Of a stretch of 64,000 nt of DNA, positions 17,415 to 58,170 are shown piece by piece. Below the pieces are notes generated by a model, which was given only the letters and a program-made list of their open reading frames with translations, made no database searches and had not been told where the DNA came from. The stretch is taken from the NCBI GenBank assembly GCA_022825385.1, contig JAJDWX010000012.1:107501-171500 (forward strand). Direction: 5' to 3'. This DNA comes from Rhodothermales bacterium (GTDB lineage Bacteria; Bacteroidota; Rhodothermia; Rhodothermales; VXPQ01). Every line of letters begins with the position of its first letter. The first letter of the stretch is position 1. Both the position numbers and the translations under genes were made by a program.

Positions 17415-20400
17415 TTAGCCGCACCCGCTGGTGGAGCCGCAGTTGGGGCAGGAATAGCAGGCGCCGCTGCGGACCGTGATGGAGCCGCAGTTGGGGCAAG
17501 CCGGGCTATCTTCCTGGTTGCGAAACGTAGCCGTATTCGACTTGCTCGCGCGCCCCCGCTCCATGGTTTCCATGAACGCTTCCACGGTGCTTCCCACCAA
17601 GGCGTCCACCGGTTCGGGCGGCGCGGAAAGTTCCGTCTGCATCCGGGTCATATCGCCGGAAGCAGGCGACGCCTCGGCGGAAGCGTCGCTGCCCGCCGCC
17701 TCCTCGTCCTTGCGCGCCCGGATAAATTTCAGGGACAAATACCGGAAAATGTAGTCCATAATGGACTTCGTGATCGGAATCGCCTTGTTTTGGGTAAAGC
17801 CGTTCGGCTCGAAGCGCATGTGGCTAAACTTGTTGCAGAGGTCCTCCAGCGGAACGCCGTACTGCAAGGCGATGGATATCGAAGTCGCAAACGCATCCAT
17901 CAACCCGGAAATCGTAGAGCCCTCCTTCGCCATCGTAATGAAGATTTCTCCGGGCATGCGCGATTCGGGATACAAGCCGATATGCAAGTATCCCTCGTGT
18001 CCGGCGATAGAGAATTTATGCGTCATGGACGGGCGTTCGTCCGGAAGCCGGTTCCGAATCGGCTGATATACGATCTTTTCGATAATTTGCGGCTCGGACG
18101 TCGCCATGCCGTCGCCCGCCGCTTCCTCGTCCCATTCCTGCTTTTTCCTGGTGTTGCCGTCCTTCGAGGTGGAAAGGGGCTGGCTTCGCTTGGAATTTTC
18201 GCGGTAAATGGCCAGCGCCTTGAGCCCCAGTTCCCAGCCCTGCATATAGGCGTCGGCGATCTCCTCGACCGTCGCGCTTTCGGGCATGTTGACCGTCTTG
18301 GAAATGGCCCCGGAAATAAAAGGCTGCGTGGCGGCCATCATCCGGATGTGGCCCATGTGGTGAATGGAGCGTTCTCCCTGGAACGGCTTGAAGGCGCAGT
18401 CGAAAACCGGGAGATGCTCCTCCCGCAGCTCCGGGGCGCCCTCGATCGTATCGTTTTCGTCGATATACCGAATAATCGCCTCGATGTCCGCAACCGCGTA
18501 GCCAAGGCGAGTAAGCGCTTCGGGTACGCTGCGGTTCACGATTTTCATCATCCCGTCGCCCTGCCCGGCCAGCAGTTTGTACTTGACCAGCGCAATATCC
18601 GGTTCGACGCCCGTCGTGTCGCAATCCATCATGAACCCTATGGTGCCGGTCGGCGCCAGCACCGTGGCCTGGGCGTTCCGGTACCCGGCCTGTTCGCCGG
18701 CGGCGAGGCAGTAGGTCCACGTTTCCCGGGCAGCCTTGAGCAGATAGTCCGGGCAACTGGCGTGAATCGTATCGACGGCCGCCGCATGCATGCGCATGAC
18801 CTCAAGCATGGAAGCGCGGTTCGGAGCAAAGCCTGCGAAGGGGCCGATCCTGGGGTTGGCGGCGATTTCGGCGCTGCGGGCGTACGCTTCGCCATGCTCG
18901 ATAGCCATGAGCGCGCCCGCCACGGCGCGGCCTTCGTCGCTGTCGTAGGGGAGGCCCATGGCCATCAGCAAGGCGCCAAGGTTGGCGAACCCGAGTCCAA
19001 GCGGACGATAGGCATGGGAGTTCTCGGCGATCGCGCGCGACGGATACCCTGCATTGTCCACAAGAATTTCCTGCGCCGTAATAAAAATGCGGGTGGCGGC
19101 CCGATAGCGCGCCACATCGAACGAGCCGTCTTCCCGCTGAAACTTGCGCAGGTTCAAGCTGGCCAGATTACAGGCCGAATCGTCGAGGAACATGTATTCC
19201 GAGCAGGGATTGCTCGAATTGATCGGCCCCGACTCCTTGCAGGTATGCCAGCGCTGGATCGTATCCTCGTACTGTACGCCCGGATCGCCGCATACATGGG
19301 TGCCTTCGGATATCTTGCGCAGGATGGCCTGTCCGTCGATCGTATCGACCGCGTCGCCGCTGAGCACGCCCCGCAATGCGTACGAGCTGTCGGACTGCAC
19401 GGACTCCATGAGCGCGTCGTCCACGCGCACGGACTGGTTGACGTTCTGGAACGCTACGCTGCCGTACGCCGGACCATTGAACGAACCGTCGTACCCTTCC
19501 TCGATCAGCGCCCACGCCTTCCGTTCCTCTTCCTGCTTCGCCGAAACGAATTCGAGAATGTCCGGGTGCCAGGATTTCAGCGTCTGCATGATGGCGGCGC
19601 GGCGCGTTTTGCCTCCGGACTTGATGGTCCCGCCGGTGGCGTCCTGTACGCGCATGAAACTAACCGGCCCGGACGGCTGCCCGCCGCCGGAAAGTTTTTC
19701 TCTGGAAGAACGCAGTTTCGACCAGTCGGCGCCGACGCCCGACCCGAACTTGAACAGCCGGGCGCTTTCCCCCATCAACTGCCAAATGTCGTCAATGGAA
19801 TCCTCCACCGATATAATGAAGCAGGCAGAAGCCTGCGGACGGCGATAGGGATCCACGGCGATGGCCCGGCCCTTCTTTTCGTTCCAGCCGGATATCTTCT
19901 TGCCGCCCGTGTCGCGAACGCCGTACTGCTGATGCAGCCCCACATTGAACCATACCGGACTGTTGAACGCGCCGTATTGATGCAGGCATAGCCAGGTCAG
20001 TTCGTCGTAGAAGCGCTCGCCGTCTTCGGCGGTGGCGAAGTACTGCTGTTCGACGCCCCAGTCGGCGATCGTGCGCGTGACGCGATGAATGAGTTGCCGG
20101 AGCGAATCCTCGCGTCCCCCTTTCGCCGGATCGACGCCGGACTGTTCGACGTCTCCGTAGAAATACTTGCTGGCCACTACGTTCGTGGCCAAAGGGCTCC
20201 AGGATTCCGGGAACGCCACGTTTTTCTGCTCGAAAACCGCCTCGCCCTGCTGGTTCTTGATGGCGGCGTCGCGGCGATCCCACTCGACCGTGTCGAAAGG
20301 CGACTGCCCTTCCCGGGAGAATACCCGGTCGATATGCAGTCCCTGGGCGAATCGCTCGGGCGCAAAGTCTGCGGCGTCGGACGCGGCGGAAGATGCCTTG

Positions 20401-53688: not shown

Positions 53689-55392
53689 ATGGGTACGACA
53701 AACGCCCTGAATACCGCGACGATCAATTTCCTGGAGCTGATCGGCAACGGCAAAACGTACACGGTCCCGCCATATCAACACGACTACGCATGGACGGAAG
53801 CGGATTGGGACGATCTGTGGAACGACATCCTCGAACTTCGCCGAAACCCCGATAGCCGACACTACATGGGCGCCCTGGTAGTTCAGGGAGAAACCGACCG
53901 GGAATTTGTCGTAATCGATGGACAACAGCGGTTGGCGACGATCAGCATTCTGGCGCTGGCCGTGATCGACCGGCTCCAGCGCATGGCCGAGCAGGGAATC
54001 GACGCCGCGCAGAACCGCGAGCGCGCAACGGAACTGCGCAACCGATTCATTGGCGAGAAGGACCCTGCCTCGCTCATCGAGCGCAGCCGGCTCGCGCTGA
54101 ACAAGACGGACGACGGATTTTATCAGGATTATCTGGTTCAGATCAGAGCGCTCCTGAATCCCCGAGGCTTGCCCAGGTCCAACAAACTCCTGCACAAGTG
54201 CTTTGCATATTTTTCCGCCGCCCTTGAGCAGCTGACCGACGCGCAAGACGACGGCGTCGCGCTCGCCAGCTTGCTTTCCGAAACGGTCGCCAGAAAATTG
54301 CTGTTCATTCTCGTCACCGTAGAAGACGAAATGAATGCGTATACCGTGTTCGAAACGCTGAACGCGCGGGGCCTGGAACTGACCACCACGGACCTGCTGA
54401 AAAACTATCTCTTCTCCAAAGTAAACACGGCGGCAGACCTGCGCGCGCTGCAACGACGCTGGCAAACACTGATCGCTACGGTTACGCAAGAACGTTTCAC
54501 GGAATTCCTGCGCTACCATTTGCTGTGCGAGCAGCCTAAAATCCGCAAGGAACGCTTGTTCAAACTGATCCGCGAGCGGGTTGCGAATACGCAGGACGTG
54601 TTTGCGCTTCTTGACGCGCTGGAGGGTCGCGGAGAAATGTTCGCCTCCTTTTTCGACCCCAATCACGGAGACTGGATCGATTTGCGCGAAGCGAAGCCCT
54701 TGATTCGCGAACTGGTTCTGTTTCGGACGCGGCAAATGACGCCTCTGTTGTTCGCGGCGCGCGAGCGTTTTTCCGACAGGGATTTCGTGCGCGTATTGAA
54801 ACTCGTAAACGTACTATCCTTTCGTTACACAATCGTGGGCAGCCTGAATCCCAACCAGCTCGAACCAGTCTACCATGGCGCAGCCAAGGCCATTCTGGAC
54901 GGAAAGGCTGCTACGCCCGCGAACGTTTTCGACCGCCTGCGCGGCATTTACGTAACGGACGCGCAGTTCATGGAAAATTTCGCAGCGCTTTCCATGGGCA
55001 TGCGGCGGCGGAAACTCGCCAAATATATTCTGTGCAAACTGGAAAAAGAGGCGGGCGGCGCGGACCGGGACCCGGAAACCGATCCGGGTTCGCTCGAACA
55101 TATTTTGCCGGCGAACCCTACGGAGGACTGGATCGACGTCTTCGGCAGCGACCAGTGGGAGGCGGCGACGAATCGCATAGGCAATTTGACGCTGCTCGAA
55201 CCGGCGAAAAACCGCGACATAAACCACGCATCCTTTGCGGAAAAACGGTCCGCATACGCAACAAGCGAGTACGCGCTAACGCAGCGCATCCCGGAACGCG
55301 CGCCGGAAGACTGGACCTTCGCCTTGCTGGAAGAACGCCAGAGGCGGCTTGCCCAAAGCGCCGTACAGGCGTGGCGTTCGGATTTCGCCTGA
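53689..55392 (+). CDS. DUF262/DUF1524 (GmrSD-like) protein, probable anti-phage restriction nuclease
   Basis: A 567-residue protein with an N-terminal DUF262 domain (about 10-230: YTVPPYQHDYAWTEADWDDLWNDI, then the nucleotide-binding DGQQR in VVIDGQQRLATI) and a C-terminal DUF1524 HNH domain (about 460-540: SLEHILPANP, NRIGNLTLL, plus the NRDINHASFAEKR stretch). The same two-domain design is found in GmrSD, a type IV enzyme cutting glucosylated hydroxymethylcytosine phage DNA. Defence function is inferred from the family. It is single-gene, next to an orphan higA, in a mini accessory region. Confidence 0.87.
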   Translation: MGTTNALNTATINFLELIGNGKTYTVPPYQHDYAWTEADWDDLWNDILELRRNPDSRHYMGALVVQGETDREFVVIDGQQRLATISILALAVIDRLQRMAEQGIDAAQNRERATELRNRFIGEKDPASLIERSRLALNKTDDGFYQDYLVQIRALLNPRGLPRSNKLLHKCFAYFSAALEQLTDAQDDGVALASLLSETVARKLLFILVTVEDEMNAYTVFETLNARGLELTTTDLLKNYLFSKVNTAADLRALQRRWQTLIATVTQERFTEFLRYHLLCEQPKIRKERLFKLIRERVANTQDVFALLDALEGRGEMFASFFDPNHGDWIDLREAKPLIRELVLFRTRQMTPLLFAARERFSDRDFVRVLKLVNVLSFRYTIVGSLNPNQLEPVYHGAAKAILDGKAATPANVFDRLRGIYVTDAQFMENFAALSMGMRRRKLAKYILCKLEKEAGGADRDPETDPGSLEHILPANPTEDWIDVFGSDQWEAATNRIGNLTLLEPAKNRDINHASFAEKRSAYATSEYALTQRIPERAPEDWTFALLEERQRRLAQSAVQAWRSDFA

Positions 55393-55406
55393 GACAAACG
55401 CAGCGT

Positions 55407-55706
55407 TCAGGCGCCGGCGTACGCGGCAGCGGGCGCAACGCGCTTGACCTTGATCCGATCCGCCTTTTTCATGGCTTGGGCCAAGTCATAGTTTGCCTGG
55501 AGCCGGTACCAAGCGTCTGCGCCGCCTCCGAACGCTTTATCGAGGCGAATGGCCATCTCGGGAGAAATGCGGGAACGACCGTTTACAAGGTCTGATATCT
55601 GACTGCGGCTGACGTCGAGCTTCCCCGCTGCCTCCGTCACGCTAAGTCCCAACGGCTCCAAACAGTCATGGCGAACGGACAGGCCTGGATGAGGCGGATT
55701 CTTCAT
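55407..55706 (-). CDS. higA: HigA/VapI-family antitoxin (orphan)
   Basis: About 99 residues from the ATG at 55706 (55739 and 55712 are alternatives). [23 protein letters not shown] followed by an Xre helix-turn-helix ([29 protein letters not shown], given in part) and [18 protein letters not shown] is the HigA signature. It normally represses the higBA operon and neutralises the HigB mRNA nuclease. Here the toxin gene upstream is reduced to its last codons, so the antitoxin is unpaired. It is convergent with the DUF262 gene. Confidence 0.88.
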
Positions 55707-55725
55707 GGGCATGGGTTTCGCCGCT

Positions 55726-55760
55726 TTAGTGATAATCAACGAGGTCTATTTTGCTTTGGC
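55726..55760 (-). pseudogene. 3' remnant of a higB toxin gene
   Basis: The codons immediately upstream of higA on the minus strand read KIDLVDYH followed by TAA, which is the usual HigB C-terminus (VDYxDYH or VELVDYH). Before that the sequence no longer resembles HigB and reaches the end of ruvA at 55794 within about 35 bp. The toxin body is therefore deleted. Confidence 0.55.
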
Positions 55761-55793
55761 ATAATTGTATCGATCCATACAGCGTCAATCCCC

Positions 55794-56387
55794 TCAACGT
55801 TCCCGGAGCGCGAGGCGTACCATCTCTTCTACGGTTCCGGCTTCGGGATGCTGCTGGAGCGTCTTGCGCAGGGCTTTTTCGGCGGCGGGCCGGGCGTAGC
55901 CCAGCGATTCGAGGGCGGCCAGCGCATCCGTGCGCGCAGACCGATCCGGCTCGTCCGCCGCCGCCTCCGATTCCGGCCATTCCATGGCGGAAAACCGATC
56001 CCGCAACTCCAGAATCATGCGCTGGGCCATCTTGCGCCCGACGCCCGGAATCCTCGTGAGGAGCGCCTCCTCGCCCTGCATCACATGGTCCCGCAGATCG
56101 CCCGGACGCATCACCGAAAGCGCAGCCAGCGCCAGTTTGGGGCCAATCCCCGATACGCTCAACATCACTTCGAACACCTGCTTTTCCCGTTCGGAAAAGA
56201 ATCCGTACAAGAGCGCCGCATCCTCCCGCACATGAAAATGGGCGGCAAGCCGCACCGTCTGGCCGGTTTCAGGCAAGCGCTCGAAGGTCGAGGTGGAAAT
56301 AAACAGTTCGTAGCCCACCCCCTGCACGTCGAGCACGGCGCGCGTGGGTTGCTTTTCGGCCAGTTTCCCGGAAAGGTAGGCGTACAT
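55794..56387 (-). CDS. ruvA: Holliday junction DNA helicase subunit RuvA
   Basis: A 197-residue protein. The OB-fold domain I opens MYAYLSGKLAEKQPTRAVLDVQGVGYEL, and domain II holds the two helix-hairpin-helix motifs (VSGIGPKLALAALS and IPGVGRKMAQRMILEL). Domain III (about 150-197), which contacts RuvB, follows a short acidic linker. It tetramerises on four-way junctions and loads RuvB. Its stop is followed closely by the truncated higB-higA remnant. The leader contains an 11-bp-phased repeat. Confidence 0.95.
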   Translation of the reverse strand: MYAYLSGKLAEKQPTRAVLDVQGVGYELFISTSTFERLPETGQTVRLAAHFHVREDAALLYGFFSEREKQVFEVMLSVSGIGPKLALAALSVMRPGDLRDHVMQGEEALLTRIPGVGRKMAQRMILELRDRFSAMEWPESEAAADEPDRSARTDALAALESLGYARPAAEKALRKTLQQHPEAGTVEEMVRLALRER

Positions 56388-56427
56388 GGATAAACGTATT
56401 TAATTTCCGTTATTGCATAATGCAAAA

Positions 56428-56480
56428 TTTCCGAAAAGGTCTCCCAAAGATTTCCCGCACATTTCCCAGAGGTTTCCCGG
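56428..56480 (-). repeat. 11-bp-phased TTTCCC/GGGAAA repeat in the ruvA leader
   Basis: CCC triplets of (T)TCCC occur at 56443, 56454, 56465 and 56476, exactly 11 bp apart, with a weaker unit before them. On the ruvA strand this reads GGGAAA every 11 bp. Confidence 0.5.
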
Positions 56481-56586
56481 AAAATGAACCCCTGCGCGTA
56501 TCGTTGACAAACAATATAGGGCACAAAGCGGCAAAAACGCTTCCTGCGACGAGCGAAACATGACAGATTGCGCCCGCCTTTCCCAT

Positions 56587-56719
56587 CTATGCAAAATTTG
56601 CATAGAAACCCCTTTCATTATGCAAAATATGCATAACAAGCCGTCTTGTCGCGAACCAAAGCCTTCCATCTATGCAAAATTCGCATAAAAAGCCCCCGCA
56701 TTATGCAAAAATTGCATAG
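56587..56719. promoter_or_regulatory. Array of four 19-bp palindromic operators (duplicated pair)
   Basis: CTATGCAAAATTTGCATAG (56587-56605, perfect 9-1-9), TTATGCAAAATATGCATAA (56618-56636), CTATGCAAAATTCGCATAA (56670-56688) and TTATGCAAAAATTGCATAG (56701-56719). Centres are 31, 52 and 31 bp apart, so sites 1-2 and 3-4 form an 83-bp tandem duplication with conserved flanks (CCATC before, AAACCCC-like between). The spacing is near whole helical turns (3 and 8), suiting cooperative binding of a dimer. It lies about 130 bp upstream of the amidohydrolase start. Confidence 0.75.
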
Positions 56720-56847
56720 ATAGATTTTTCCGGGTTCGTTCGGACAAGAATTTCTATACTGTTTGCTGTTCGGCCCATGACGTCCGCCTGTGTCCCGGCG
56801 CCGCCATCCGCCCGATCTCCCTTCAATGTAACCATAGAGGCCATACG

Positions 56848-58170
56848 ATGCGTCACGTTACGTTATTCCTTGCGATGGGGTGTCTGTTCCTTGCATGCCT
56901 GATCGCGCCCCGCCCCGCGCAAGCGCAAATCGCGTTTGAGCGCGTCCATGCCCTGACCATGACGGACGACGAAGTCCGAGCCGACTGGACCGTCCTCGTG
57001 GAAGGCGACCGGATCGTGGCCGCCGGTCCCGCCGGGGAGGTGGACGTCCCCGCGACGGCGCAACGAATCGACGGCGCCGGAAAATACCTGATGCCCGGCC
57101 TGGCCGAAATGCACGGGCATGTGCCCTCCCCGAACGAATCCGGGGAATATATCGAATCCCTGATGTTTCTGTACGTCGCCAATGGGGTTACGACCGTCCG
57201 CGGCCTCCTGGGCGAACCGGGCCAGCTGGCGTTGAAGGAAGCCACGGCGGACGGAAGCCTGCTTGGCCCGGCGCTGTACCTTGCGGGCCCGGCTTTCAGC
57301 GGAGGAACGATTTCTTCGCCGGAACAGGCGGCGCGGCGCGTCCGGGAGCAGGTCGCCGAGGGGTGGGATTACCTGAAGGTGCTGCCCGGACTGACCCTTG
57401 AGGAGTTCGACGCCATGGCCCGCGCCGCAAACGAGGAGGGCATTCCCTTCATCGGACATGTCACCGCCGAGGCGGGGCTGCTCCACGCCATCGAAATGGG
57501 GCAGCAAACGATCGACCACCTGGACGGCTACATAGAATATGTTACCGAAGGGGGCGACGCGATCGACCCGGAACGCCTCGAAAACGCCATCGCCCTGACG
57601 AAGGAGCGGAACGTATGGCTCGTCCCCACCATGGCGCTCTGGGAAACCATCCTCGGCGCCCCGTCCTCCGAGGATATGGCGCACTACGAAGAACTGCGAT
57701 ATATGCCGCCGGACATGGTGGCTTCGTGGGCCCGGTCGCAGGACCGGCGGCGGGCCGGAAGCGGATTCGATCAGGCGCGGGCGGACCGGATTGCGGCCCA
57801 GCGCATCGAACTGCTTGGCGCGCTGAACGAGGCGGGCGCGCGCATGCTCATGGGCACGGATTCTCCGCAGGTGTTCAGCGTGCCGGGTTTTGCGCTCCTG
57901 CGCGAACTGCCGCTCATGGCCGACGCGGGCATGTCGCCGTACGAAATTCTCGTTTCCGGGACCCGCGCGGTGGGGGAATATCTGCGCGAAGAAGATGCGT
58001 TCGGAACGATTGCGACGGGAAGCCGGGCGGACCTGATCCTGCTCAACAGCAACCCGATGGAGGACGCCATGCGCGTGTTCGACCGGGCCGGGGTGATGGC
58101 GCGCGGACAGTGGATACCGGAATCGGAGATACAGGAGCGCCTCGCAGCGATTGCCGCGGGATACCAGTAG
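56848..58170 (+). CDS. Exported amidohydrolase (imidazolonepropionase-like family)
   Basis: A 440-residue TIM-barrel amidohydrolase with a signal peptide (cleavage after about A26, AQA). Metal motif H89-x-H91 (MPGLAEMHGHV), the Lys bridge in WDYLKVLPG, metal histidines in FIGHVTAEAG and TIDHLDGY, and the catalytic Asp in MGTDSPQVF are all visible. Periplasmic or secreted members are often dipeptidases or prolidases. The substrate is not assignable. Control by the palindrome array upstream is likely. A diverged 28-codon copy of its residues 103-130 lies at 60349-60433. Confidence 0.87.
   Translation: MRHVTLFLAMGCLFLACLIAPRPAQAQIAFERVHALTMTDDEVRADWTVLVEGDRIVAAGPAGEVDVPATAQRIDGAGKYLMPGLAEMHGHVPSPNESGEYIESLMFLYVANGVTTVRGLLGEPGQLALKEATADGSLLGPALYLAGPAFSGGTISSPEQAARRVREQVAEGWDYLKVLPGLTLEEFDAMARAANEEGIPFIGHVTAEAGLLHAIEMGQQTIDHLDGYIEYVTEGGDAIDPERLENAIALTKERNVWLVPTMALWETILGAPSSEDMAHYEELRYMPPDMVASWARSQDRRRAGSGFDQARADRIAAQRIELLGALNEAGARMLMGTDSPQVFSVPGFALLRELPLMADAGMSPYEILVSGTRAVGEYLREEDAFGTIATGSRADLILLNSNPMEDAMRVFDRAGVMARGQWIPESEIQERLAAIAAGYQ

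Follow-up and report, generated by a model that had tools for sequence, protein, structure and literature searches.

Helically phased pairs of ATGC-N7-GCAT dyads at an amidohydrolase gene and across a Rhodothermales genus: candidate operators of a LysR-type regulator

Paired dyads in known systems and at the amidohydrolase locus

Tetramers of LysR-type regulators (LTTRs) commonly occupy layouts of two turns as well as of three turns. The sites of BenM and CatM read ATAC-N7-GTAT with the T-N11-A element, and tetramers of these proteins bind two sites at once (PMC6628147). Lrp-type sites are inverted repeats of 13-17 bp that cluster at intervals of two or three turns, with wrapping of the DNA (PMC2995911). 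REP and BIME repeats form dispersed palindromic clusters that are often found after stop codons. NrdR boxes are paired on the same helical face, with a spacing of about three turns. A published study (PMC12051234) reportedly treats the helix-phase dependence of NrdR.

The stretch of DNA analyzed here (the window; 64,000 bp) is part of G000, a genome of 3.02 Mb in 49 contigs. Between the divergent genes of a predicted exported amidohydrolase and of RuvA it contains four dyads (Table 1), which a sequence-only reading had described as near-identical, with one perfect 9-1-9 palindrome and steps of 31, 52 and 31 bp. Coordinates and shuffles agree with this description: four matches to TATGCAAANTTTGCATA with at most three mismatches occur in the window, compared with a mean of 0.15 in dinucleotide shuffles (n = 100), none of which reached four or more. 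The 83-bp duplication proposed in the same reading is borne out by the two 48-bp pairs of the array, which are offset by 83 bp and identical at 40 of 48 positions. The sister genome G001 has the same four dyads at the amidohydrolase gene, and G002, G003 and G004 have one pair at this place, which makes it plausible that the quad in G000 and G001 is a lineage-specific duplication of one pair. A search of window positions 55000-58000 gave no Rfam match at the gathering threshold.

Table 1. Positions of the array, its neighbouring genes and the LTTR gene of the genus (window coordinates unless a locus is given)
Feature	Position	Strand	Description
Dyad 1	56587..56605 (56588-56604 without extension)	.	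Perfect 9-1-9, CTATGCAAA-A-TTTGCATAG
Dyad 2	56619..56635	.	TATGCAAAATATGCATA; 31 bp from dyad 1
Dyad 3	56671..56687	.	TATGCAAAATTCGCATA; 52 bp (5 turns) from dyad 2
Dyad 4	56702..56718	.	TATGCAAAAATTGCATA; 31 bp from dyad 3
-10-like TATACT	56755..56760	+	Putative amidohydrolase promoter
Predicted exported amidohydrolase (Amidohydro_1)	56848..58170	+	Likely controlled gene
ruvA, divergent neighbour	55794..56387	-	Name from the sequence-only reading and the translated sequence
LTTR gene of the genus, BenM/AlsR-like	L087:4701-5606	-	Pfam HTH_1 and LysR_substrate

In all five genomes with an array at the amidohydrolase gene, the TATACT box and the centre of the dyad closest to it are 46.5-47.5 bp apart; a promoter search upstream of this gene found no consensus sigma-70 -35/-10 pair. 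The position of the box beyond the nearest dyad speaks for an operator that acts from upstream on the amidohydrolase gene, and the window array is probably such an operator. The array is upstream of the -10-like box, with the nearest dyad at about -57 relative to the inferred start; this location would suit an activator, or a repressor that acts by looping or wrapping. Conservation upstream of amidohydrolase orthologues, proposed earlier as a check, was found within the genus; more distant orthologues have no such dyads upstream. The suggestion that ruvA may be co-controlled did not stand up. It had drawn on a related half-palindrome at the ruvA end of the region (TTGCATAATGCAA, 56413-56425), but this site shows the opposite arrangement (GCAT..ATGC), is without a partner at 31 bp and is absent even from the sister genome G001, which leaves co-control of ruvA by the array or by this site unsupported. 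A HigA-like XRE protein encoded beside ruvA was likewise rejected as the regulator, as it is found at that place in two of six genomes, yet all six carry arrays. The respective HigA-family antitoxin-like gene adjoins ruvA (window 55407-55739, minus strand), and within the genus an HTH_3 match occurs there in G000 and G001 only.

Distribution and conservation of the arrays

Genome-wide, the dyad is ATGC-N7-GCAT inside TATGC-N7-GCATA and occurs in arrays of 2-5 dyads with a step of 31 bp (three turns). Many further sites thus exist in the genome, a point that the sequence-only reading had left to be checked: in G000 the dyad was found with up to three mismatches at 41 places, compared with 7 for the reversed control pattern, and a second dyad lies at 31 bp from every one of the 20 places with at most one mismatch, a spacing that was not part of the search. 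The pair pattern with a 31-bp step matched at 26 places in G000, and its control at none. A stricter pair pattern gave 9-24 places per genome in the six sampled genomes of the genus and none in 93 other genomes of the order, the control pattern giving one match across the 99 genomes. Chance matches were controlled with reversed patterns and shuffles; the assemblies are partly fragmented. A literature search for the motif as text (ATGC-N7-GCAT or TATGCAAA) returned no relevant paper.

Inside the catalogued arrays the step is 31 bp in 100 of 110 cases (the rest being 32, 52, 53, 63, 73 and 83 bp), a count that leans towards 31 because imperfect dyads were retained in the catalogue only if a 31-bp partner was present. 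At six loci, the pair-to-pair offsets of 52/53, 63, 73 and 83 bp correspond to whole turns of about 10.4-10.5 bp, with a resultant of 0.995 and no equally good fit among 20,000 random sets; the phasing at whole helical turns noted earlier is well supported. The recognized unit would consist of two ATGC-N7-GCAT dyads with a 31-bp step, which at three turns puts both on the same DNA face, and larger arrays would carry a second pair added a whole number of turns away. The earlier proposal of an operator array for a dimeric regulator is well supported as well. What that reading lacked is that the basic unit is a pair with a 31-bp step, which implies a tetramer and not a single dimer, and that many copies lie outside promoters.

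Identity between genomes amounts to 97% in the arms, 78% in the cores, 58% in the spacers and 54% in the flanks, although the arms were part of the search key and part of their contrast with spacers and flanks thus reflects ascertainment. When the arrays of the six genomes were grouped by flanking homology, many groups were found at the orthologous place in four to six genomes; recurrent places are amidohydrolase/ruvA, the egtD 3' end, ddc-yceI, lysR, adk, gyrA/aminotransferase, hyuB, lptD, fic-sbcB and DUF5916-TPR.

The arrays might alternatively be a dispersed palindromic repeat, either of the REP type or of the 3'-UTR hairpin type, that functions as RNA or is mobilized by a transposase. Many arrays are located directly after stop codons, the window array folds well as RNA (z -6.35), and a few arrays have short repeats common to their flanks. 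However, spacers and flanks are mostly unrelated between loci, so that there is no transposing unit, and a transposing repeat was rejected on this ground. In addition, the 31-bp step and the whole-turn offsets are constraints of a DNA face, the arrays are kept in place at 75-83% surrounding identity, and no terminator-like site was found. In contrast to REP and BIME repeats, the arrays are without a common spacer or flank, keep a strict phase and also occur inside genes. Such a repeat is a very improbable explanation.

Candidate binding proteins

The genus encodes an LTTR (Table 1) for which AlsR and others were the closest profile models, below the cut-off, and BenM was among the closest proteins of known structure in a sequence comparison. 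Its helix TQPTLSRHIQRLE is invariant across the genus. An array precedes the LTTR's own gene in five genomes, with dyad centres at -31/-38 and -62/-69 from the start codon, the perfect dyad being gene-proximal and the degenerate dyad 31 bp further out; in G005, where the gene was not found, its expected place falls in an assembly gap between the ends of contigs C328 and C140. Three LTTR orthologues (L199-L201; about 50% identity), from three genomes of two other families, show ATGC-N7-GCAT in perfect form at -21/-22; a degenerate partner follows 22 bp further upstream, a step of two turns and not three, in the same order as in the genus. The upstream regions of these three are homologous and therefore not independent; the chance that an LTTR dyad with 4-bp arms reads ATGC is about 1 in 256. 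A pair-pattern search of the order's genomes detected no genome-wide arrays with a 31-bp step in the other families that carry LTTR orthologues.

The array dyad agrees with the LTTR form, T-N11-A in an interrupted dyad with 4-bp arms and N7, and the 31-bp step places two dyads on one helical face, as expected for the site of an LTTR tetramer. The same features are found in LysR-type operator pairs (BenM/CatM sites 1-3; RBS/ABS), where one tetramer occupies two dyads and the site at the regulator gene combines one perfect and one degenerate dyad. In contrast to these, most pairs of the genus have two near-perfect dyads at a fixed step of 31 bp; they occur in groups of up to 4-5 dyads and are dispersed throughout the chromosome, also in coding sequence and in the space between convergent genes. 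Dyads, phasing, orthologous conservation throughout the genus, the array at the LTTR gene and the homologous dyad at the genes of its orthologues are all computed directly. They suggest, with somewhat better than even confidence on our part, that the array is an operator cluster of a sequence-specific, symmetric, probably tetrameric DNA-binding protein, most likely the LTTR of the genus. This LTTR would bind the arrays including the one at its own gene, and the dozen or more identically built arrays over the chromosome are most likely bound by it as the genus's single LysR-type regulator. Binding by the LTTR and its oligomeric state, as well as the direction of regulation and the effector, are what we infer. 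Against a reading as LTTR operators, several arrays lie away from promoters and the adjacent genes have no common pathway; another DNA-binding protein of the genus may be the binder instead.

One such protein is the single member of the Lrp/AsnC family, of which exactly one is encoded in each of the six genomes and for which the arrays would be operator or nucleoid sites with DNA wrapped round an octamer. Multi-site arrays of this family (e.g. of Ss-LrpB) also consist of short A/T-centred palindromes clustered at two- or three-turn spacing, the AT/GC content along the array alternates with a period of about 10 bp, and array positions outside promoters would be in keeping with a nucleoid-like protein. 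Nevertheless, we consider Lrp/AsnC an unlikely binder: the lrp gene is without a comparable dyad pair in all six genomes, the basic array unit is a pair and not four, the dyads are near-perfect whereas Lrp sites are degenerate, and the motif is better explained by an LTTR whose own gene carries a homologous dyad.

The possibility that the arrays are NrdR binding sites can practically be dismissed despite the same two-box, same-face architecture. The NrdR model matched none of the six genus genomes, compared with 9 of 14 controls, and NrdR was rejected as the binder for this reason; the motif and its odd centre differ from the NrdR box, and the arrays occur at many more loci than NrdR box pairs. 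Although NrdR was not found, each of the six genomes has a ribonucleotide reductase gene, which in G000 lies in the window at about 18204-19829 (minus strand).

Array settings and possible roles

Gene calls based on codon composition and Pfam place arrays in co-directional, divergent (amidohydrolase/ruvA) and convergent intergenic regions as well as within lptD and adk. The convergent pairs are gyrA/class-III aminotransferase, glgX/malQ (named from the translated sequence) and ribBA/coaE. In lptD, 12 of 15 codons for invariant residues are identical at the array versus 284 of 650 (p 0.005), with one other segment of equal size also reaching 12 and one of the six genomes having dropped out; this supports the view that the lptD sequence would be conserved beyond the needs of the protein. 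For the adk array, selection on synonymous codons received no support (p 0.28). The arrays within lptD and adk, and those that separate convergent genes, make a role outside promoters possible.

One such role would be that of chromosome-organizing sites, similar to those of Noc, SlmA or MatP, bound by another protein and without a direct role in transcription. The arrays are indeed spread over closed chromosomes, are found within genes as well as between the ends of convergent ones, and keep their place across species. However, the skew sampled in G004 showed no convincing bias of the arrays towards origin or terminus, and patterning of this kind was rejected; by our own estimate, a largest gap of 874 kb between arrays, as in G004, is unremarkable when there are 11-13 sites. 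Together with the many arrays shortly upstream of start codons and the link to the LTTR gene, this renders purely organizing sites improbable, to much the same degree as Lrp/AsnC sites.

Alternatively, and speculatively, the LTTR itself might have turned from a local autoregulator, which in relatives has one two-turn pair at its own gene, into an architectural protein acting across the genome. Its three-turn double-dyad arrays, which keep their place across species even in coding sequence, would then bend or loop the chromosome and not only switch promoters; we regard this as rather unlikely. If the assignment to the LTTR holds, the arrays show how its site changed layout, from two turns to three, before multiplying over the chromosome, also outside promoters. 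They also represent a clean natural case of helically phased operator pairs with one step length and about a hundred examples, and are thus usable to test how a tetrameric regulator reads spacing.

Several minor observations concern the surroundings of individual arrays. The flanks of otherwise unrelated arrays (L086, L133, L144, L155, L180) have common repeats of about 60-165 bp. In G004 (L156:3962-7473), about 3.4 kb of extra DNA is located between direct repeats of about 80 bp, each with a complete array pair, and part of the neighbouring decarboxylase gene is also repeated, over 327 bp. A tRNA-Arg (acg) gene (L087:6352-6430, minus strand) adjoins a four-dyad array. Finally, in G003 a 45-bp element (L176:3892-3937) lies about 60 bp from the LTTR array and has dozens of copies in G003 and G005.
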